Shown here: positions 18,929-30,622 of the stretch, in pieces
Position numbering within the stretch: the first letter of the stretch is position 1
Layout of the letters: every line of letters starts with the position of its first letter
From: a virus
Strand: one strand, 5' to 3'
DNA length: 64,000 bases
IMG/VR virus record: IMGVR_UViG_3300042482_000702
Location: 137,355-201,354 of that record
The notes under the pieces: model-generated
Told to the model about the DNA's origin: nothing
Databases searched by the model: none
What the model saw: the letters and a program-made list of their open reading frames with translations, nothing else
Translations under genes and position numbers: made by a program

Positions 18929-21900
18929 TTATATATTCTCAAAAGAAGCTCCGGTTGGAGTAATATAGAATGTGATATCTATAAATTCTAATGATTTGGT
19001 TGGTTTGATATAAATCTTACCAGTCATTTGATTTCTGTCTAAATCAGCAGCATCTGACGATACTGTTACACGGAAATCATATAAACCTCTATCTCTTCTG
19101 ATAGCGTCCAAAATAGGGTTAACAGCGTCCAAGAAGTCTTGTCTTACTTTAGCATCGTTTTGTTCAAACAGTAATCTTACAGATACCGCAGAAATCAATT
19201 TACGAGCTTGAAGTAATAATCTTCTAACATTGATTCTATCTAAAGCCGATTGTCTTATTTGAAGAGTTTTATTACCCCAAATTACAGTACCAACATCAGA
19301 GAAAGTAGCAATTGGGTTAATACGACCTTGATAAAGTGTGTCTCTATCTTCTTGGGTTAGTTTACGTCTCGCTTTAACCGCATTTACAATACCTCTTGTG
19401 TAACCCGCCGCAGCGAACCAAGGGAAAGCAATGTTATCAGTTAATGCTAAATTTCTCGTAACCTCAGCCGTTGCCGGTAAGTAGATTTGAGTATTGTTAA
19501 CACTATCTCTTGTTAATACCCAAGGGTAGTAAGTAGCCGTGTAGTTTGAATCAACACCTATTTGGTCTAAATTATCGACAGCTCGTTGAGGGTAAATTAA
19601 ATCTGATTGGTCTCCGGTAGAAGGTACAAACATATTATAATCAGGTGTTGTACAAATATACAACGAATCCGCTCTATCGTTCTCAATCATATCAATAGCA
19701 CTTTCAACTAAATCTGAATTGTTAAGATAATCAATTCCAGGTGTTACAAAAACATTGATGTTAACCGCCTCAGGATTAGAAAATGTTCTTTGTCCTAATT
19801 TATATGCGTAATAATCGGTGTTAGCCCAATCTTCACTATTATCGCCAACAGAAATTTGTTTAAATGCTCCCCAACCTGTTGCCGCAGGATATTTAATTGA
19901 TACCGCCGCTCCGTGTAAGTAACCGTTTCTACCTAAAACAAATGTATCACCATTTGTTCTATATTCTCTATAGATATCCCACCCGTCAAAACCTCCTTGA
20001 ACAAGGAAACTAAATTTACGAGAATATAGTCTATAATAAGGACTTGATTCACTATCAGGGTCTTTTGTAAATGTTGCATCTCCAACATAAAATGCTGGTG
20101 TACCACTTGTAGTAAAAGTATTAGGAATTAAGATACTATTAGCATCTATATCCATATGGAAACCTTTAGTTCTAGTTGACCACTCATCACCTGTAGTATC
20201 ATTACCAACATCTAAAGGTAATTGTTTTCCTTTATAACCAAAGAAATTAGCATCAATACCAATACTATCAGATATACCAAGATAAGTTCTTCTAACATTG
20301 TCACCACCACTTCTAGTTGAATCGTCAGCACCTGACGCTAAACCAAATGGGGGGTTATAAACAACCTCACCAGGATAATCGTATTTAGTTTTTATAATTG
20401 GGAATGGTGATTTAACACCTGCATAATCTCTTGAATTAAATCCTAAAAATCCACAAGGAAGAGCGTCTATAGGTGCATCTTCATTAAGTTCTAACATAAC
20501 ATATTTAGAATTCAATTCATATTCTCCATCTATAGAACCAACTTTCTTAGCTATAAATGAATTATCGTTAGGATTCATATTACAATTTGTAAATTTCTCA
20601 AGAACAACAGGGGCACTATCAGAATCATAAAAATCTCTAACTAATACATCAAAAGTTCCGTTATTAAATGAAATGTTTGCTATAGATATTTTAACTTCTG
20701 TGTTAGCGGAGTCACCATCAGCTATTGTTGTAAATTTAAATAAGTTATAAACTTTATTACCTCTTAATTCAGACACAACCCAAGGAGATGTCGGTGATTG
20801 ATATTTTTCTAAATACCAAGCAATGGATGTTGCGTCGGTTTGTTGTCTTGCATCAGGTAATGCGGTTAAATTACAATTTAAACCTCTAATAAATCCTTTT
20901 CTATAACCATATGTTAATAATGTTTGATATCTTTCTTCTACAAACAATGGTACTGTTGTTCTTGGTTTTGCAAAATTAGAAGAACCAAATACTTTACTAA
21001 TATATTTAGAATCAGAATTAGATAACGAAGTTTCAAAGAAAAATTCTTCACCATCTTTATTTGTAACATTTAATCCAAAAGTAGAGAATGGATTTTTAGT
21101 AACTCCTGAATAAGTTGATGAACAATCCATTGAAACGTCTGTTAAACCTGAAACTTCATAAACCGCACCGTCATCACTACCATAAGTCGCGATACCTCTT
21201 GAACGAAGTGTTGCAATAACTAAATCATCAAAATCGGTATAAGCAGTTCCTGAATAAACATATATTTCACCTGTAATAACCCCCAAATAACAATTTATCA
21301 ATCCCCCCTCATTAGGCACACCTATGTTACCAACAACAACCGGATTACAAACAGATTCAACCATGACAGTAACAATCCAATTTGTTGGGTTACTTCCATC
21401 TTCAGATAATAATTGATATGTTAAACTTCCACTTGAAAAATTATTAACGGTTTCCCCACTTATTTGAGTAGAAAGTCCAATCGAAACATATCCATATGGA
21501 ACACAAGTATCGAACCCACAAACGATTTTTGATAAATCAGTCCCAACAGGTACTACAACATTTATTGTGTTGGTATTATAGTTAATACTACCAATTGTGG
21601 TTGTACCTATATCATCAACAAGAATTCTACCGAGACTACCTCCATTGATAAAAATTATATCACCAATTTGATATCCGGTACCAGGTGTATTAATCGTTAC
21701 ATCAGTTATGACACCTGCATCAACAGATATATCAACCGTTAATCCTTCACCAAAACCATCGGTTGTTGTTGTATAACCATTACCACCAACATATCCTGTT
21801 CCTCCTGTGAGTCCATCCAACAATGATACATATCCACCAACAGTGAACCCATAGAAAGTTGAACAATCTGATGTTGTAGATATATTTGATATCTCTTCAA

Positions 21901-22723
21901 CAATACCATAAAAAGATGAACCACTATATGAACCCCCTCCATTATTATCAAATAATGAATAATACCAAGGGTCATTTTCTGGTGCTGTGTAATCCGCTAA
22001 ATCTGAACTAACATTATTAACACCAAAAACATTTGTTGAAGCAGTATATGATGTTAATTCTGAATAACTATCTGCTGGGATTGTACCAAAATAAGATATA
22101 CCAGAATATGATTCGTCAAAATTAATTATTGAATTAAATGCCAAATTATTAATATCTGAACGAAGTGTTGAGATACTACCATTAAATAATTCATATGGTA
22201 AATCAATTTTATTTAATAAAAATTCAGGTAAATCTGTCTCAATCATAGTGATAGATGATATATCATTATCACAACCCGAAAATATGTAAGAATACACATA
22301 TCTTTCATATTCTTCACACACAGATTCACATCCTGGTGTTAAAGTTAGACAATTAAAATCGATTGTTGTTGAATCAACATTTGCTTTTGTCGTAATTGAC
22401 CAAGATGGTCCCGCATCATAACCTGAAAGTCCTAAAACTCTGGTTACAAATAATTGATTAGATTGTTGTAAATACGCTTTAGCAATATAAGACGCCTCAT
22501 ATTTTGGTATTTGTGTGTTTATAAATTTTTCAGGGGAAGTTCCTCCAAAATACGCTGAGAATTCATCAAAATTTCGTATAAAAATAGGTTCGAAGGCTGG
22601 ACCTTTTAAGGTTTCACCAACAATACCTAATGTAGTTACTCCCACACTTTGGGCTACGAAACTTAAATCAACTTCAGAAGTATATACTCCAGGAGATACG
22701 AATACTTTACTGTTTGATGCCAT
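18929..22723 (-). CDS. gp18: Tail sheath protein with large inserted domains (gp18-like, 1264 aa)
   Basis: The ends match contractile sheath proteins. The N-terminus has SPGVYTSEVD, then GIVGETLKGPAFEPIFI and the FDEFSAYFG segment. The C-terminal 700 residues hold the conserved core, including WGNKTLQIRQSALDRINVRR, RLLLQARKLI, the DAVNPILDAIRRDRGLYDFR region and the final IDITFYITPTGASFENI. At 1264 residues it is about twice the size of T4 gp18 (659). The excess is a beta-rich insert at about residues 120-560 with Gly-rich GTGY units (TPGTGYQIGDIIFINGG), probably displayed on the outside of the sheath. The sheath role is firm; the role of the insert is unknown. It is divergent from the small regulator at 22849. 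Confidence 0.9.
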   Translation of the reverse strand: MASNSKVFVSPGVYTSEVDLSFVAQSVGVTTLGIVGETLKGPAFEPIFIRNFDEFSAYFGGTSPEKFINTQIPKYEASYIAKAYLQQSNQLFVTRVLGLSGYDAGPSWSITTKANVDSTTIDFNCLTLTPGCESVCEEYERYVYSYIFSGCDNDISSITMIETDLPEFLLNKIDLPYELFNGSISTLRSDINNLAFNSIINFDESYSGISYFGTIPADSYSELTSYTASTNVFGVNNVSSDLADYTAPENDPWYYSLFDNNGGGSYSGSSFYGIVEEISNISTTSDCSTFYGFTVGGYVSLLDGLTGGTGYVGGNGYTTTTDGFGEGLTVDISVDAGVITDVTINTPGTGYQIGDIIFINGGSLGRILVDDIGTTTIGSINYNTNTINVVVPVGTDLSKIVCGFDTCVPYGYVSIGLSTQISGETVNNFSSGSLTYQLLSEDGSNPTNWIVTVMVESVCNPVVVGNIGVPNEGGLINCYLGVITGEIYVYSGTAYTDFDDLVIATLRSRGIATYGSDDGAVYEVSGLTDVSMDCSSTYSGVTKNPFSTFGLNVTNKDGEEFFFETSLSNSDSKYISKVFGSSNFAKPRTTVPLFVEERYQTLLTYGYRKGFIRGLNCNLTALPDARQQTDATSIAWYLEKYQSPTSPWVVSELRGNKVYNLFKFTTIADGDSANTEVKISIANISFNNGTFDVLVRDFYDSDSAPVVLEKFTNCNMNPNDNSFIAKKVGSIDGEYELNSKYVMLELNEDAPIDALPCGFLGFNSRDYAGVKSPFPIIKTKYDYPGEVVYNPPFGLASGADDSTRSGGDNVRRTYLGISDSIGIDANFFGYKGKQLPLDVGNDTTGDEWSTRTKGFHMDIDANSILIPNTFTTSGTPAFYVGDATFTKDPDSESSPYYRLYSRKFSFLVQGGFDGWDIYREYRTNGDTFVLGRNGYLHGAAVSIKYPAATGWGAFKQISVGDNSEDWANTDYYAYKLGQRTFSNPEAVNINVFVTPGIDYLNNSDLVESAIDMIENDRADSLYICTTPDYNMFVPSTGDQSDLIYPQRAVDNLDQIGVDSNYTATYYPWVLTRDSVNNTQIYLPATAEVTRNLALTDNIAFPWFAAAGYTRGIVNAVKARRKLTQEDRDTLYQGRINPIATFSDVGTVIWGNKTLQIRQSALDRINVRRLLLQARKLISAVSVRLLFEQNDAKVRQDFLDAVNPILDAIRRDRGLYDFRVTVSSDAADLDRNQMTGKIYIKPTKSLEFIDITFYITPTGASFENI

Positions 22724-24037: not shown

Positions 24038-24472
24038 TTATTTTGTTATAAAAATTTTATTTTTTAAATTAATCATCTCCACTTCATTGGCATGAAATAT
24101 AGGTTCTTCGGTGTCTTTCATAACATAAGAATTATATTTGTATGGATTGTAGGTGACAATATTATTGTTAGGTTCTTCTGGTAAATTCTCACAAGGGAAC
24201 TCACAATAATCCATTAAAGTTCCAATAACAAATGAATGTACATTTTTACTTTTTTCTCTAACCACTCTTTCTCTACCACCTTGTCTAACTCTAAATTCGA
24301 CATCTTCTAATTTAACATAATCGGAGTGTGAAATTAATCTACCCTTGTATGTTACCGAAAAGGTGTGTTTATGTAGGTTATAATAAACCATTACTTTTTT
24401 ACCAATATAATCGTCATCTGAATAAATTTCAAATAATCTTTTTGCTTGAGATTCTGTTATTAATATTTTCAT
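24038..24472 (-). CDS. Conserved-looking phage protein with MKILITES start (144 aa)
   Basis: A 144-residue protein of unknown function. It opens with MKILITESQAKRLFEIY, a leader nearly shared with the two upstream genes. The body has a compact beta-rich part (VMVYYNLHKHTFSVTYKGRL) followed by a basic stretch VRQGGRERVVREKSKNVHSF and a CEFPC pair of cysteines. The upstream gene's TAA overlaps its ATG by one base (TAATG), so translation is coupled. I know similar short proteins only as unnamed phage proteins. The shared leader may be a targeting or assembly tag. Confidence 0.6.
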   Translation of the reverse strand: MKILITESQAKRLFEIYSDDDYIGKKVMVYYNLHKHTFSVTYKGRLISHSDYVKLEDVEFRVRQGGRERVVREKSKNVHSFVIGTLMDYCEFPCENLPEEPNNNIVTYNPYKYNSYVMKDTEEPIFHANEVEMINLKNKIFITK

Positions 24473-24861
24473 TAGTCGGCTACGATTGTTTTTACTGGTA
24501 AATCAAAGTTATCTTTAAACCATTCTTTCATAGGTTCTATCCAATAACTACCAAACATATTGGTTAATTTTTCATAATCATTAACAATTAATATCGGTGT
24601 CTTTTCTTTAAAAGATTTACTCGAAGGTTCATCGCTATAATATTCCTTTTGAATATATACAAAAGCAACACCATCTTGGTCGTAATCACCTTCATATATA
24701 TGATAAAAATACTCTCGTATATATGGGTTTTCCTCATCATCATATTCATCATCATTCCATGTGGTTGGATGAAAATAATCTATGTTACTTACATCAAAAG
24801 TATCTTCAAGATAATTATATATTGTTCTATATAATTTATTTTCTGTTATTAATATTTTCAT
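24472..24861 (-). CDS. Paralogous MKILITEN protein, copy 2 (129 aa)
   Basis: A 129-residue acidic protein of unknown function, clearly a tandem duplicate of the gene at 24861-25247. Both start with MKILITENKLYRTIYNY and end with LPVKTIVAD, and share EPSS, NMFG and EPMKEWF-type blocks in the same order. The middle has diverged and is rich in Asp, Glu and Tyr. The genes are joined by TAATG one-base overlaps. The DNA around the junctions (from the VKTIVAD codons into the next MKILITE) is almost identical, so the duplication is recent or kept similar by recombination. Confidence 0.6.
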   Translation of the reverse strand: MKILITENKLYRTIYNYLEDTFDVSNIDYFHPTTWNDDEYDDEENPYIREYFYHIYEGDYDQDGVAFVYIQKEYYSDEPSSKSFKEKTPILIVNDYEKLTNMFGSYWIEPMKEWFKDNFDLPVKTIVAD

Positions 24862-25247
24862 TAGTCGGCTACGATTGTTTTTACGGGTAATTTATAATTA
24901 TCTTCGAACCATTTTTTCATAGGGTCTTTCCAATAATTTCCAAACATACTTGACAAATTTTGCCAATCATGTCCATTAACTGATAATATTGGTGATTTAT
25001 CTTTCAAAGGGTTTGATGAAGGTTCATTACTGTAGTATTCATAAGAATAATAACTAAAAACCCACTTTTCATCCTCACCCCACGTATCGTAATAAAAATC
25101 TGTAATATATGGATTTTCAATCTCACTCATTTCCTCATCATCCCAAACTTCAGGATGAGACGGTTCTAAATTAGATATGTCAAAAGTATCTTCAATATAA
25201 TTATATATTGTTCTATATAATTTATTTTCTGTTATTAATATTTTCAT
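24861..25247 (-). CDS. Paralogous MKILITEN protein, copy 1 (128 aa)
   Basis: A 128-residue acidic protein of unknown function, duplicate of its downstream neighbour (shared leader, shared C-terminus, similar length). It has Trp-rich acidic segments such as PEVWDDEEMSEIENPYITDF and DTWGEDEKWVFSY. No catalytic motif is visible. It follows the gp14-like gene with a one-base TAATG overlap. Small acidic phage proteins may be packaged in the head, mimic DNA or modify host proteins; the sequence does not decide. Confidence 0.6.
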   Translation of the reverse strand: MKILITENKLYRTIYNYIEDTFDISNLEPSHPEVWDDEEMSEIENPYITDFYYDTWGEDEKWVFSYYSYEYYSNEPSSNPLKDKSPILSVNGHDWQNLSSMFGNYWKDPMKKWFEDNYKLPVKTIVAD

Positions 25248-25759
25248 TATAGACCTCTAAATTCATTATTCATTACCGGTGAAGCAATAATACTACGATA
25301 AAAAGGTTTATACCCCCCTATTGTGTGTTTATTATCGGAAGTTACCCTTCCATCATTATTAACCGTATAATATCTTACTTTATCTTCCGTTTCATAATAT
25401 CCGATGTAATCACCAAAATTAATATCTACTTCCAAATTATCTAAATCTCTCTGATATACCGACACTTTAAGATTGCCCGGCTCAAATTGGTCAATTCTTG
25501 ATGTCCCAACAAATTTGTTTTCAGGTGGTAAAATTTGAACATATCCTTTGAACTCAACTGGTGGTAAGAATTTCACACCATCAGATACAGTCTCACCATA
25601 GACAGAGTCAGTCTTGGTCTTATATCTATCAACACGATATAGAACTAATGTAAAGTTCATATCTCCGTGTAACCATTCAGTTCCAAAATCTTGTTCTAAC
25701 TTGAAATCTTCAGCTCCAAAGAATTTACCTATTCTTGTAATTGGTACTTTATTATTCAT
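25247..25759 (-). CDS. Putative neck / head-completion protein (gp14-like)
   Basis: A 170-residue beta-rich protein. The pattern of a VLYRVDRYKTKTDSVYGE segment, then a GYVQILPPE strand, and GDYIGYYETEDKVRYYTVNN in the C-terminal half is typical of small myovirus neck or head-closure proteins, where a D-x-VYGE block precedes two beta sheets. In T4, gp13 and gp14 form the neck that closes the filled head; a gp13-like candidate is encoded at 29510-30622. The assignment is tentative. The gene overlaps the upstream 109-aa gene by 8 bases. Confidence 0.5.
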   Translation of the reverse strand: MNNKVPITRIGKFFGAEDFKLEQDFGTEWLHGDMNFTLVLYRVDRYKTKTDSVYGETVSDGVKFLPPVEFKGYVQILPPENKFVGTSRIDQFEPGNLKVSVYQRDLDNLEVDINFGDYIGYYETEDKVRYYTVNNDGRVTSDNKHTIGGYKPFYRSIIASPVMNNEFRGL

Positions 25760-26081
25760 AATTTTTTCGTCTTTTGTATTCTGATTCCGAGCGAGTACCT
25801 GAATTATTAATTATAACATTAATACCAAAATAATCTTTTATAGTCTTTTGTATTTCACGATTCCACCCACTTCTGTAATTTACAGAAACTTCACGACCCT
25901 GATATGAAACTTTCAGATATTTACTATCGTCAGGGACAACATATGTTACCTTCATATAATATTCTTCACCAGTATCATCAGTTGGTTCTAATGTATAAAT
26001 AAGTTCAGACACACCATTAGGTTTAATGTGTTTAATCATTTTATTTATTAATTTGTCTAATATCTCTTGTCTCATTCTCAT
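25752..26081 (-). CDS. Small protein of unknown function (109 aa), first gene of the neck operon
   Basis: A 109-residue mixed alpha/beta protein with a basic C-terminus (SESEYKRRKNYE). An N-terminal helix (EILDKLINKMIKHIKPNG) is followed by strands (YYMKVTYVVPDDSKYLKVSY). No family is recognised. Two in-frame ATGs are possible, at 26081 and 26075; an AATATTTATCAAC element lies just before the first, so the second may be the real start if that element is a promoter. It opens a six-gene operon running to 23010 and is divergent from the helicase gene. Confidence 0.55.
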   Translation of the reverse strand: MRMRQEILDKLINKMIKHIKPNGVSELIYTLEPTDDTGEEYYMKVTYVVPDDSKYLKVSYQGREVSVNYRSGWNREIQKTIKDYFGINVIINNSGTRSESEYKRRKNYE

Positions 26082-26131: not shown

Positions 26132-27907
26132 TTGGAAAACAATATACCTGAAAATTCTAATTTAACAGTAGAACAACGAGCAATATCTCTTCTTGAAACT
26201 TATCAAGGGGCAAACAACTACATCCTAAAATTAAAATTTCAAAAGGAAACAAATAAAAGATTCTTCCCCACAAGAGCTCAATCGGACTATATAATAAATT
26301 ATCACGAAGTGACTCCAAAGGTTGCTAAAAGATGGGTTGATTTAGACCCGTACTTCGCCAAAAAAATTGCTGACGAAAAATTATTACTTACAATTCCTGA
26401 ACAAATATGGGTGGAAAAGTTGTTAGTTGAGAAAGAAAAATCATATCATGTTTGGGGTAAAGTTCTATCCGGTGAAACTATCCACGATTTTTGGTTACCA
26501 AAAGGTGCGTTAATTAAAACACATACTATTAAAGATGTTGTTGTTGATTATGATAAATACTCTAATCGTCCACCACTTGAACATCAAAAACTTGCAATTG
26601 AGAAACTTGCCGGGTCTAAAAGATTTATTTTAGCTGATGATATGGGACTTGGTAAAACCACGGCAACGATTATTGCGGCTTTAGAGACGGGAGCAAAGAA
26701 AATATTAATTGTTTGTCCGGCATCTTTAAAGATTAACTGGCAGAGAGAGATTGAGAACTATACCGACAGAAGTGTTTATATCTCTGAAGGTAAGAATTTC
26801 TCAATAGAACACGATTTTGTTATTGTTAATTACGATATTCTTAAAAACTTTTATGATTTAAAAAATAAAGACAATTCTTTAATCACTCAAGGAAATTTTG
26901 ATTTAATTATCTTGGATGAAGCGCATTATGTGAGTAATGGACAAGCCGCGAGAACCAAACTTGTTAATAGTTTTTCTAAAAATTGTGAAAGAGTGTGGTT
27001 GTTAACGGGGACACCTATGACAAATCGTCCGATGAATTATTTTAATTTATTATCTCTTATTGAGAGTCCTGTTTCACAAAATTGGATGGCTTACGCTATT
27101 AGATATTGTCAAGGTTATCAATTTATGGCGGGGAAAAGAAAAATATGGAATGTTTCGGGAGCATCAAATTTAGAAGAATTAAGAGACAGAACATCAAGGC
27201 AAGTATTGAGAAGATTAAAGACTGAAGTTTTAGATTTACCTGAAAAAATTATTACACCAATTTATTTAAGATTAAAATCAAAACTTTATGAAGGGTTGAT
27301 GGGAGAATACTATGATTGGTATAATAAAAACCCTGACGAATCAACATCGCTTACCGTTCAGTTCAGTAAGTTAATGAAAGTTCGTCAAGTGATTGCCGAA
27401 GAAAAAGTTAAGGACACAATAGAATTAGCTGAAAATATTTTGGAACAAGATAAAAAAGTTATCATCTTCACCAATTTTACTGAAACATTAAATCAAATTG
27501 CTGACCATTTTGGTAAACAAGCGGTTAAATTAGACGGCTCAACATCAAAACCTCAACGACAATATGCTGTTGACCAATTCCAAGATAATGAGAAAATTAA
27601 AGTGTTTGTTGGGAATGTTAAGGCTGCCGGTGTAGGAATTACTTTAACCGCCGCTGAAGCTGTAATCATTAATGACCTATCTTTTGTTCCGGGAGACCTA
27701 GCTCAAGCAGAAGATAGAGCATACAGATATGGACAAAAAAATTCGGTATCAGTTTATTACCCAATATTCGATAATAGTATAGAAGGAATCATTTATGATA
27801 TGGTAAATCATAAGAAACAAAATATTGGAACCGTAATGGGTGATAATATAGAAGAGAAGGGTGATTTCATCGGAGAACTTATGAATAAAATTAACAACCG
27901 AGGTTAA
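26132..27907 (+). CDS. SNF2-family DNA helicase/translocase
   Basis: A 591-residue superfamily 2 ATPase. Motif I is DDMGLGKTT (169-177), motif II is DEAH (262-265), motif III is LLTGTPM, and the C-terminal RecA lobe holds FTNFTETL, the KAAGVGITLTAA block and motif VI AEDRAYRYGQ. This order is that of SNF2 proteins resembling SMARCAL1/HARP annealing helicases. It would move along DNA, remodelling forks or clearing proteins, a job T4 gives to UvsW and Dda. The start is TTG: no ATG occurs in frame until inside motif I, and the N-terminal 130 residues look genuine. It leads a plus-strand run with the SOD-fusion gene. Confidence 0.88.
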   Translation: MENNIPENSNLTVEQRAISLLETYQGANNYILKLKFQKETNKRFFPTRAQSDYIINYHEVTPKVAKRWVDLDPYFAKKIADEKLLLTIPEQIWVEKLLVEKEKSYHVWGKVLSGETIHDFWLPKGALIKTHTIKDVVVDYDKYSNRPPLEHQKLAIEKLAGSKRFILADDMGLGKTTATIIAALETGAKKILIVCPASLKINWQREIENYTDRSVYISEGKNFSIEHDFVIVNYDILKNFYDLKNKDNSLITQGNFDLIILDEAHYVSNGQAARTKLVNSFSKNCERVWLLTGTPMTNRPMNYFNLLSLIESPVSQNWMAYAIRYCQGYQFMAGKRKIWNVSGASNLEELRDRTSRQVLRRLKTEVLDLPEKIITPIYLRLKSKLYEGLMGEYYDWYNKNPDESTSLTVQFSKLMKVRQVIAEEKVKDTIELAENILEQDKKVIIFTNFTETLNQIADHFGKQAVKLDGSTSKPQRQYAVDQFQDNEKIKVFVGNVKAAGVGITLTAAEAVIINDLSFVPGDLAQAEDRAYRYGQKNSVSVYYPIFDNSIEGIIYDMVNHKKQNIGTVMGDNIEEKGDFIGELMNKINNRG

Positions 27908-27919
27908 TTCAGTTGTTAA

Positions 27920-27939
27920 GATATTTATAAGAATAACAA
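27920..27939 (+). promoter_or_regulatory. Late-promoter-like motif of the SOD-fusion gene
   Basis: GATATTTATAAGAATAACAA, identical over 20 bases to the element before the tail tube gene (17921-17940, other strand), 10 bases before the ATG at 27950. Confidence 0.6.
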
Positions 27940-27949
27940 AATAAGCCAA

Positions 27950-29488
27950 ATGAAAAAGATTGAAAAAAAAATCAATCTCATAACAGAAGAACTAAAAAAA
28001 GTTGAAACCCACGAAAATCAACAAATGTTCATTAATGAGATGAAAAAAATAGGGATAGAAAAATTACCCTACGCCTATTCAGCACTAAAACAATTTATTG
28101 ATGCTGAAACAATGGATTACCATTACAATAAACACTATAAAGGATATGTTGATAAACTAAATTCCGCTCTTAAAAAGAAAGATTATGGTGATTTAGAATT
28201 AGAAGAAATTATTAAATCAATAAGTAGATTTGATAAGACAATTAGGAACAATGCCGGAGGAGCCTTTAACCACGCATTGTTTTGGAAAATGTTAACTCCA
28301 AAAAAACAAACACCAAATGGTGAAATTATTAGGCAAATTAAAAAAGATTTTACTACCTTTGTCAAGTTTAAAAATAAGTTTGAGGAAATTGCTCAAGAAA
28401 AATTTGGTTCAGGTTGGGTTTGGTTAGTTTTAACAAAACGAAATACCTTAAAAATCGTAACCACAGAAAATCAAGACAATCCTCTTATGAATGTTATAGA
28501 TGATGGTGGTTATCCAATACTAGGATTAGATTTATGGGAACACGCATATTATTTAAAATATAGAAACAAAAAAAATGACTATGTTAAGAATTTTTGGAAA
28601 TGTGTTAATTGGGAATTTGTTAATAAACTATATACAATGAGAATTGAAACTAAATTAAATGAAAGTTTAAATTTTAAGTCTGTTATTTCTGAAGGTAAGT
28701 CTGAAAGATGTGGTAGAGAAGAGAACGAAGCTATTCGTATGGTTTTTAATATTAACCCAAAAATTAAACAAATTTTTATGGAAGGTATTAACCACATCCT
28801 TAAAGAAGTTTTTCCGGATAACTATTATGGGTATGGTGAATACGCTAAAGGTGAAATGTCTGGTGTGTATGATTTAGAAAGAGATGGTCGTTCTGTATTA
28901 AATAAATTAAACACAAACTATAGTTGTTTCTGTGTTCTTCTTAACGACACAAATCAAGTTTTAAAATCTACAAATTTACCTGAAATTAAAATTGTTGGTT
29001 TAAAACCATTGGAACAAATTGAAGAAACTAAAAAATTACTTATTTTCTTACACGAATATAAATTTAGAATATTCAAACAAACCTCCGCAACATTTCAAAA
29101 CATTATGAAAGTTTTAACCCAAACAGATACTTGGGGTCAATCTCGTGAAGATAAAACTATTGAGATTTTAAAGAAAAAATTTGGAAAAGATAATGTTAAC
29201 GCCATCGGTAAATTAGGTAGTAAAGCTGATATGATTGGTGGTATAGATTGTGAAGTTATTATTAATGGTAGAAAATTAAGTAGTCAAATTAAACCTTTTG
29301 GAAGTATTGAAACAACCGGTGAAGAAATTACTGTTATTGGTTCAGGAGCCGTTAAAAAATACTATACAGATTGGTTAATTTTCACTAGAAATAATAAAGA
29401 TGTTTTAATTTTCAGAAATAAAAATTCAAAAATTGTTAATGGACAATATGTTTTTCCTAAAGGAGATTTAATTTATTCATTAAATTGA
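27950..29488 (+). CDS. Fe/Mn superoxide dismutase fused to a PD-(D/E)XK nuclease-like domain
   Basis: A 512-residue two-part protein. Residues about 38-233 form a complete Fe/Mn superoxide dismutase: His58 in DYHYNKHY, Tyr66, His108 in NNAGGAFNHALFW, Gln175 in ENQDNPL, and Asp194 and His198 in LDLWEHAYY. All four metal ligands are present; the GG and QD signatures favour manganese. Such enzymes turn superoxide into peroxide and oxygen. Residues about 240-512 are not part of any SOD. Near the end, KADMIGG (Asp427) followed by SSQIKPF (Gln446, Lys448), after a helix with REDKTIEIL, fits a PD-(D/E)XK nuclease core with Q in place of E. The join is in one frame with no break. The function of the fusion is unknown. 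Confidence 0.85.
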   Translation: MKKIEKKINLITEELKKVETHENQQMFINEMKKIGIEKLPYAYSALKQFIDAETMDYHYNKHYKGYVDKLNSALKKKDYGDLELEEIIKSISRFDKTIRNNAGGAFNHALFWKMLTPKKQTPNGEIIRQIKKDFTTFVKFKNKFEEIAQEKFGSGWVWLVLTKRNTLKIVTTENQDNPLMNVIDDGGYPILGLDLWEHAYYLKYRNKKNDYVKNFWKCVNWEFVNKLYTMRIETKLNESLNFKSVISEGKSERCGREENEAIRMVFNINPKIKQIFMEGINHILKEVFPDNYYGYGEYAKGEMSGVYDLERDGRSVLNKLNTNYSCFCVLLNDTNQVLKSTNLPEIKIVGLKPLEQIEETKKLLIFLHEYKFRIFKQTSATFQNIMKVLTQTDTWGQSREDKTIEILKKKFGKDNVNAIGKLGSKADMIGGIDCEVIINGRKLSSQIKPFGSIETTGEEITVIGSGAVKKYYTDWLIFTRNNKDVLIFRNKNSKIVNGQYVFPKGDLIYSLN

Positions 29489-29509: not shown

Positions 29510-30622
29510 ATGTCAATAATTCCAGAACCTCAAAGAACCGCGTTATACACAAGAATTAAACATTTACTTGGAGCACCACTTCGTTCAATAGAAATTGAAG
29601 ACGAAATGATGGATAGTTTATTAGAATTATCTATCGGTGATTATTCTCAATATGTCCAAGATTGGTTAATAGAATCTCAATGGACATCCTTATATAATCT
29701 TAATCTTGATACTCAATCATTATCAAAAGCTTTTATAACAAAAAGTTTAGATTTTGAAACGAGATACACTTATGCGTATTCTAAAATTGTTGGATTACAG
29801 GCTGGTGGAGATTGGGAACTTAAAAAAGATTACATTCAACTTGAGCGTTACCAACAAATATATGAAATTCCAGCAAATAGAGAAATTAATGAAGTTTTAT
29901 GGTTTACACCTGCAGAACTTAATAATTTATTGTTTGACCCTTGGACTTTTGGGGCTTTAGGTGCCGGTGGTTTAGGTGGTCCGGGTGGTTTTTCACAAAT
30001 GGGTATGTCGGGTTCATTTTTTATGATGCCAGCGTTTGATATGTTATTGAGAATGCAAGAAATTAATATTCAAAGAAGAATAATTGCGGGTGACTTAACA
30101 TATAGAATTACAGCTCTTCCTGAAGGTAAAAAGGCATTACACTTAATGAATACACCTGGTGGTAAATTTGACTTCGGTAATGCAACCTTAACAAGAGGTA
30201 AAGTATGGTATTGGTATTATGATGTTGGTCCGGCGGATAGGGATAAGTGTTTGAAAGCAAACCCTGATATTATTACACTTCCATCTGATGTTCCATTTGA
30301 AGAAATTTCTTGGTCTGATTTAAATAATCCTGCACAACAATGGGTTAGAAGATGGTTCACGGCGTATGTTAAACAAACATTGGCGAGAGTTAGAGGTAAA
30401 TTTAGTGGAAATGTTAAAACACCGGATAGTGAATTAACTATGGATTACGCATCATTAGCAACAGAAGGTGCTGACGAAAAATCAAAACTTGAAGAAGAAT
30501 TAAAATTAAGGTTGGAGAGATTACGACCTGATAAAATGATGGAAAGGGAAGCTTTATTAGCGGAGAATTTAAATAAATCTTTGAAATTTAGAGCAATGCC
30601 AAGACAAATTTATGTAATTTAA
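29510..30622 (+). CDS. Neck/connector structural protein (gp13-like, tentative)
   Basis: A 370-residue protein. The first 60 residues (ALYTRIKHLLGAPLRSIEI, then a DSLLELSIGDYSQYVQDWL helix) have the look of a head-tail connector, and the central RITALPEGKKALHL/GKVWYWYYDV region and the VRRWFTAYVKQTLARVRGKF helix are typical of the large neck proteins of T4-like phages. A Gly-rich loop (GALGAGGLGGPGGF) lies at about residues 148-162. With the gp14-like protein it probably forms the neck; the assignment rests on general resemblance and genome position, not on a decisive motif. It has its own late-promoter-like motif. Confidence 0.55.
   Translation: MSIIPEPQRTALYTRIKHLLGAPLRSIEIEDEMMDSLLELSIGDYSQYVQDWLIESQWTSLYNLNLDTQSLSKAFITKSLDFETRYTYAYSKIVGLQAGGDWELKKDYIQLERYQQIYEIPANREINEVLWFTPAELNNLLFDPWTFGALGAGGLGGPGGFSQMGMSGSFFMMPAFDMLLRMQEINIQRRIIAGDLTYRITALPEGKKALHLMNTPGGKFDFGNATLTRGKVWYWYYDVGPADRDKCLKANPDIITLPSDVPFEEISWSDLNNPAQQWVRRWFTAYVKQTLARVRGKFSGNVKTPDSELTMDYASLATEGADEKSKLEEELKLRLERLRPDKMMEREALLAENLNKSLKFRAMPRQIYVI

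Follow-up and report, generated by a model that had tools for sequence, protein, structure and literature searches.

The locus described here raises the question of why a phage would encode a superoxide dismutase (SOD) and a nuclease-like domain in one polypeptide chain, and whether the two are meant to stay together. The window (i.e. the whole stretch of 64,000 nt that was analysed) is part of a virus record of 322,477 bases (G000), and the gene in question is an ORF at 27950-29488 on the plus strand, which starts with ATG and encodes 512 amino acids. Its parts and its surroundings in the window are:

24038-24472, 24472-24861 and 24861-25247 (-): ORFs with an MKxx(I/V)TE leader
26132..27907 (+): upstream neighbour, an SNF2-type DNA helicase, found in 83/83 loci with SOD and in 84/85 SOD-less loci
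27921..27930 (+): ATATTTATAA, a late-type promoter motif that lies 29 bases ahead of the ATG of the fusion gene
27950..28054 (+): residues 1-35, predicted N-terminal helix (a helix in the model, with low pLDDT)
28055..28636 (+): residues 36-229, Fe/Mn superoxide dismutase of the Mn type (from Pfam and PDB matches, ligands and dN/dS)
28655..28663 (+): residues 236-238 (LNE), first of two tandem L/I-x-E motifs, predicted cut after E238
28685..28693 (+): residues 246-248 (ISE), second L/I-x-E motif, predicted cut after E248
28715..29089 (+): residues 256-380, mostly helical conserved region of the C-terminal domain (model pLDDT mostly >90), within which a GRSVxNKLNTNY block is conserved
29090..29485 (+): residues 381-512, PD-(D/E)XK-like nuclease domain with E400, D427, D433, Q446 and K448 (from the invariant core and Foldseek)
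29510..30622 (+): downstream neighbour, a head completion/head-tail adaptor-like protein, found in 82/83 loci with SOD and in 82/85 SOD-less loci

The two halves and the age of their fusion

The initial annotation, made from the sequence of this locus, had described a SOD with all of its metal ligands and Mn-type signatures, fused to a PD-(D/E)XK-like domain with a D...QxK core, and this architecture is borne out by sequence, conservation and predicted fold alike. Residues 36-229 match both Pfam domains of the Fe/Mn family above the curated cut-offs (Sod_Fe_N, 1e-23, 84 bits; Sod_Fe_C, 2.6e-39, 133.8 bits), as well as the PDB sequences of solved Mn-SODs (E ~1e-56). The four metal ligands (H58, H108, D194 and H198) are accompanied by H62, Y66, Q175, W196, E197 and Y201, and all ten of these SOD-site residues are invariant in 55/55 distinct fusion proteins. 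The nearest bacterial proteins found for this half are Flavobacterium SODs, at no more than 49% identity, while its dN/dS amounts to 0.03-0.11 (NG86, with dS close to saturation in the more distant pairs). Judging from its sequence, the SOD half is most likely catalytically active, as a Mn- or Fe/Mn-SOD.

The suggestion that the SOD fold could be used as a binding module only is disfavoured by these results, since every catalytic residue is conserved and dN/dS is this low. SODs of the Fe/Mn family form dimers, as do resolvase-like nucleases when they act, and the fold might be a mere scaffold for dimerisation or docking of the nuclease, without a part in catalysis, in line with the existence of relatives that do without a SOD. 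Such a scaffold, however, would account neither for the invariance of the metal ligands and the second-shell residues (Y66, Q175 and E197 included) throughout the 55 proteins, nor for the strong purifying selection on this part of the protein, and we consider it very unlikely.

The C-terminal half is of a different nature. Residues 237-512 gave no meaningful match in Pfam, NCBIfam, PHROGs or the PDB sequences (with no named nuclease family above cut-off in Pfam, NCBIfam or PDB), no recognisable cellular relatives of the domain were found in the GTDB genome set, and residues 249-512 (the C-domain) are phage-only in the searches made. Structure prediction of this half, as proposed in the initial annotation, nevertheless gave a confident model with a nuclease-like fold (pLDDT 89.3, pTM 0.84 for residues 249-512). 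Foldseek against the PDB placed I-Ssp6803I and archaeal Holliday-junction resolvases (Hjc) at the top, with a probability of at most 0.96, and NhoI and RecU lower in the list; the credible top neighbours are all PD-(D/E)XK nucleases, though with weak E-values (>=0.03). The full-length model was moderate (pLDDT 70.7), with the SOD part poorly modelled and few SOD sequences in the alignment, and the argument on the fold therefore rests on the model of the C-domain only.

The D...QxK core was recovered as D427, D433 and Q446-x-K448, with E400 upstream, and all five residues are invariant in the 55 distinct fusion proteins. A deep alignment with a second protein family, to which the C-domain is ~25% identical, retained only 11 invariant columns, which include E400, D427, D433, Q446 and K448 (numbered E164, D191, D197, Q210 and K212 in that alignment). 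As read from the sequences, this arrangement corresponds to a PD-(D/E)XK active site of the QxK type. Going by the model, the C-domain very likely has a PD-(D/E)XK fold, and it is probably active as a nuclease. The weak E-values to known nucleases and the lack of a Pfam or NCBIfam match above cut-off would also fit with a PD-(D/E)XK fold that has no nuclease activity (e.g. a DNA-binding or structural part of the head), or with a wrong fold call, but the preservation of precisely these residues between two distant families, in which little else is kept, makes this rather unlikely. The proteins of the second family (~493 aa; L035:1452-2930 (-), L260-L299) have an MKFRITE N-terminus and a zinc-ribbon-like segment besides the C-terminal core that they share with the fusion, and their N-terminal part resembles the window ORF 24038-24472, which itself is without nuclease.

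A scan of IMG/VR with the C-domain returned 97 relatives, and a scan with the conserved motif at least 421. Among 168 loci (some of which are repeat retrievals of one contig), 83 have a SOD fused in the equal place, whereas 85 have the C-domain only, preceded by a short N-terminus. An independent scan seeded with a Flavobacterium SOD led to the same architecture in 19/19 loci. Given these numbers and the conserved neighbours, the fusion is not a product of chance or an assembly artefact, and it is an old and stable architecture, in which both halves are under purifying selection. An assembly join, which had been named as a possible origin of the fusion, is ruled out by the dozens of independently assembled contigs that carry it. 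No RNA element was found at the fusion locus.

In a tree of the C-domain, the presence of the SOD is explained by two changes. With a midpoint root both are losses, as the SOD is present in the most divergent clade (41-45% identity) and in several more; placing the root elsewhere could turn one of them into a gain. The L025/L040 type has kept the N-terminus of the fusion with a vestige of the SOD start (NEMKKIEIEKL), which is joined straight to the linker (KSIISEGKSERC). In this type a loss can be seen directly, and the SOD has thus been lost at least once, with retention of the nuclease and usually of a candidate cut site. No relocated SOD gene was found in six records of SOD-less phages of 160-318 kb (which are possibly fragments).

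Conserved protease motifs in a variable linker

The linker between SOD and nuclease is variable, yet E238 and E248 are invariant in 55/55 distinct proteins. Residue 236 is L, I, M or V and residue 246 is L or I in all 55 of them, and both motifs are kept in 19/19 groups when the proteins are clustered at 85% identity, as well as in the divergent types L320 and L324 that were found by the SOD query. The only other position with an invariant pattern of this kind is E197 in the active site of the SOD. T4 gp21 cuts after L/I-x-E (PMC9026906), and G000 encodes a gp21-family prohead protease of its own (G000:242014-242739; PF03420, 7.9e-25, at G000:242155-242646). Capsid proteins of this phage group keep [FY]LINE|A at residue 60, which is where a gp23-type propeptide would end. 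With likely cleavage sites in the linker, the two enzymes may not stay joined; the motif L/I-x-E is short, however, and a structural role of the conserved glutamates is an alternative.

Outside the fusion proteins, an L/I-x-E motif is found near the N-terminus, the region in which targeting peptides of T4 are cleaved off, in 21/26 distinct SOD-less proteins; as the other 5 are without it, cleavage would not be essential to the nuclease in some clades. The fusion protein itself has LITE at residues 10-13 as a possible additional site, which is absent from several clusters, and an N-terminal targeting peptide of a known type is not clear in it. Elsewhere in G000, 16 proteins begin with MKxx(I/V)TE, i.e. 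a leader that resembles L/I-x-E. The corresponding DNA pattern occurs 17, 15, 15, 3, 15 and 12 times in six related jumbo-phage records, compared to 0 times in three other phages and 0 times in a control with the reversed pattern. These leaders may be capsid-targeting peptides that are cut at an L/I-x-E-type motif, and some of their carriers are likely paralogues. The likely cleavage sites had been overlooked in the initial annotation, together with the SOD-less relatives and the context of a T4-like bS21 phage.

Possible processing in the prohead or action in the infected cell

Besides the protease, which is of the T4 gp21 type, G000 carries homologues of the gp23 capsid protein and the gp20 portal, and genes for tail sheath, tail tube and baseplate. 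A gene for ribosomal protein S21 (G000:243337-243495 (+)) lies between the protease and portal genes and opposite to them in strand, which assigns the phage to the bS21 group of jumbo phages from freshwater Bacteroidetes, whose genomes of 293-331 kbp have S21 between protease and portal (PMC9723584). The virus is a T4-like jumbo phage of freshwater/lake Bacteroidota, of the bS21 type. Two other ORFs of the window stand out: the tail sheath protein (18929-22723 (-)) is unusually long with 1264 aa and has its sheath matches mainly in the C-terminal part, and for the product of 25752-26081 (-) Pfam gives a weak match (E 0.006, below cut-off) to the RnlA N-terminal domain, RnlA being the toxin RNase LS.

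The late-type promoter that had been proposed for the fusion gene holds as a motif only: in addition to ATATTTATAA in front of the gene itself, the core ATATTTAT occurs upstream of 58 ORFs throughout G000, versus 5.6 expected. A second motif that is enriched before genes, TATCTTTG (24 ORFs versus 2.4 expected), resembles the Bacteroidota -7 element. ATATTTAT(AA) probably represents late promoters and TATCTTTG host-type promoters.

The invariant linker motifs, the specificity of gp21, the LINE|A site of the capsid proteins and the N-terminal L/I-x-E of SOD-less proteins together suggest that the fusion protein is a late-expressed, head-internal polyprotein, which is cut in the prohead into SOD and nuclease and delivered with the DNA. 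We infer activities, processing and packaging alike, and regard the reading as a whole as having about an even chance of being correct. A single chain (N-terminal helix, Mn-type SOD, linker and PD-(D/E)XK nuclease) would be made late and enter the prohead core, where the gp21-family protease would cut the linker after E238 and/or E248, so as to release an active SOD and a separate nuclease. The two would be retained alongside the genome in the head and reach the new host along with the DNA, as do the internal proteins and Alt of T4, which undergo packaging and processing and leave the particle together with the DNA (PMC9026906). The SOD would then remove superoxide arising at entry or during infection, while the nuclease would cut DNA, most likely that of the host or other foreign DNA; its substrate may be host DNA or other foreign or branched DNA, among which the data choose none. 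The more specific scheme, in which one chain is cut in the prohead to yield two active enzymes that are co-injected, in a lineage that tags many of its proteins with similar protease-site leaders, is tentative and falls somewhat short of even.

Also counting for the polyprotein are the intact SOD site with its low dN/dS, the fold and core of the nuclease, the gp23 and gp20 homologues of the genome, the late-type motif, the head-completion-like character of the next gene (phrog_211, 2.6e-10; 2e-13 to a gene of phage immuto annotated as putative head completion protein) and the precedent of a packaged SOD in PBCV-1. The Cu/Zn SOD of this virus is expressed late and is present in the particle, and superoxide was lower in PBCV-1-infected cells than in cells infected with a relative without SOD (PMC7019647). 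In analogy to this, the SOD of the fusion may serve to quench superoxide upon entry. The earlier idea of a virion-delivered protein has thus acquired specific support from the gp21-family protease in the genome and the two invariant L/I-x-E sites in the linker, with delivery itself as a prediction.

The upstream helicase, on the other hand, fits an intracellular role in DNA metabolism and counts against the polyprotein. The main rival is accordingly a bifunctional chain that stays uncut in the infected cell, where a resolvase-like nuclease would act with the helicase on phage DNA that is replicating or branched, prior to its packaging, while the SOD would protect this machinery or the cell from superoxide. 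The helicase immediately precedes the gene in almost all relatives, the top Foldseek matches include RecU and archaeal Hjc resolvases, and the free, unfused SOD genes of other phages lie near stress genes and not near head genes. An uncut enzyme, however, leaves the two invariant L/I-x-E motifs in an otherwise variable linker unexplained, and the loss of the SOD in some clades indicates that SOD and nuclease are separable. In addition, a resolvase may not be missing from this phage, since a protein that by eye looks like RuvC-type resolvases appears to be encoded elsewhere in the genome (G000:111489-112088 (+); LGLDVSTRTIGWALF). All in all, the uncut enzyme seems unlikely, though it deserves more weight than any other alternative to the head-internal polyprotein.

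Comparison with known systems

Each component has been known by itself: SODs in phages and in virions, nucleases of the PD-(D/E)XK type, and internal proteins cut by gp21. No description of a phage SOD-nuclease fusion was found in the open-licence literature, nor one of a single chain that combines a SOD, a nuclease and two conserved protease sites, and a database entry of 501 aa that contains the C-domain of the fusion is named only 'superoxide dismutase'. If the head-internal polyprotein is real, it would provide the first virion-delivered superoxide dismutase of a bacteriophage, as far as the searched literature shows, and a case of a head-internal polyprotein whose single chain gives rise to two enzymes. 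Whether phages have to quench superoxide when their DNA enters the cell becomes a testable question. Furthermore, it suggests a rule for recognising packaged proteins: in a genome that encodes gp21, they would have a conserved L/I-x-E that separates domains or follows a short leader. Such a rule would be useful for T4-like jumbo phages that are uncultured and whose virion proteomes are difficult to obtain.

Compared to the Fe/Mn SOD family (PF00081/PF02777), the phage protein has both Pfam domains, all ligands and 49% identity to a Flavobacterium SOD, and differs in its C-terminal nuclease-like fusion, its linker with protease motifs and its carriage by a phage. The free SODs of other jumbo phages (Vibrio phage 2.275.O, Pseudomonas phage Callisto and relatives of PA5oct) are likewise phage-borne members of the Fe/Mn family, but they are unfused and only ~28% identical. 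With the PD-(D/E)XK nucleases, of which I-Ssp6803I and archaeal Hjc are nearest by predicted fold, the C-domain shares this fold and the E...D...QxK core, whereas it has no significant sequence match to them and contains an extra helical region of ~125 residues. The bS21 jumbo phages are like G000 in S21 context and genome size, while a superoxide dismutase is unmentioned in the main text of the paper that describes them (PMC9723584).

Two systems bear most directly on the head-internal polyprotein. A245R, the virion SOD of PBCV-1, is virus-encoded like the SOD of the fusion, and is late and packaged (PMC7019647), where packaging of the fusion is predicted; it is, however, a Cu/Zn SOD of an algal virus, without a nuclease fusion and of an unrelated SOD family. 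The internal head proteins IPI-IPIII and Alt of T4 have in common with the fusion a gp21-type protease, the L/I-x-E motif and a late-type promoter motif. They are cut behind an N-terminal peptide of 10-19 residues (PMC9026906), whereas the predicted sites of the fusion lie between two enzyme domains and not just behind such a peptide.
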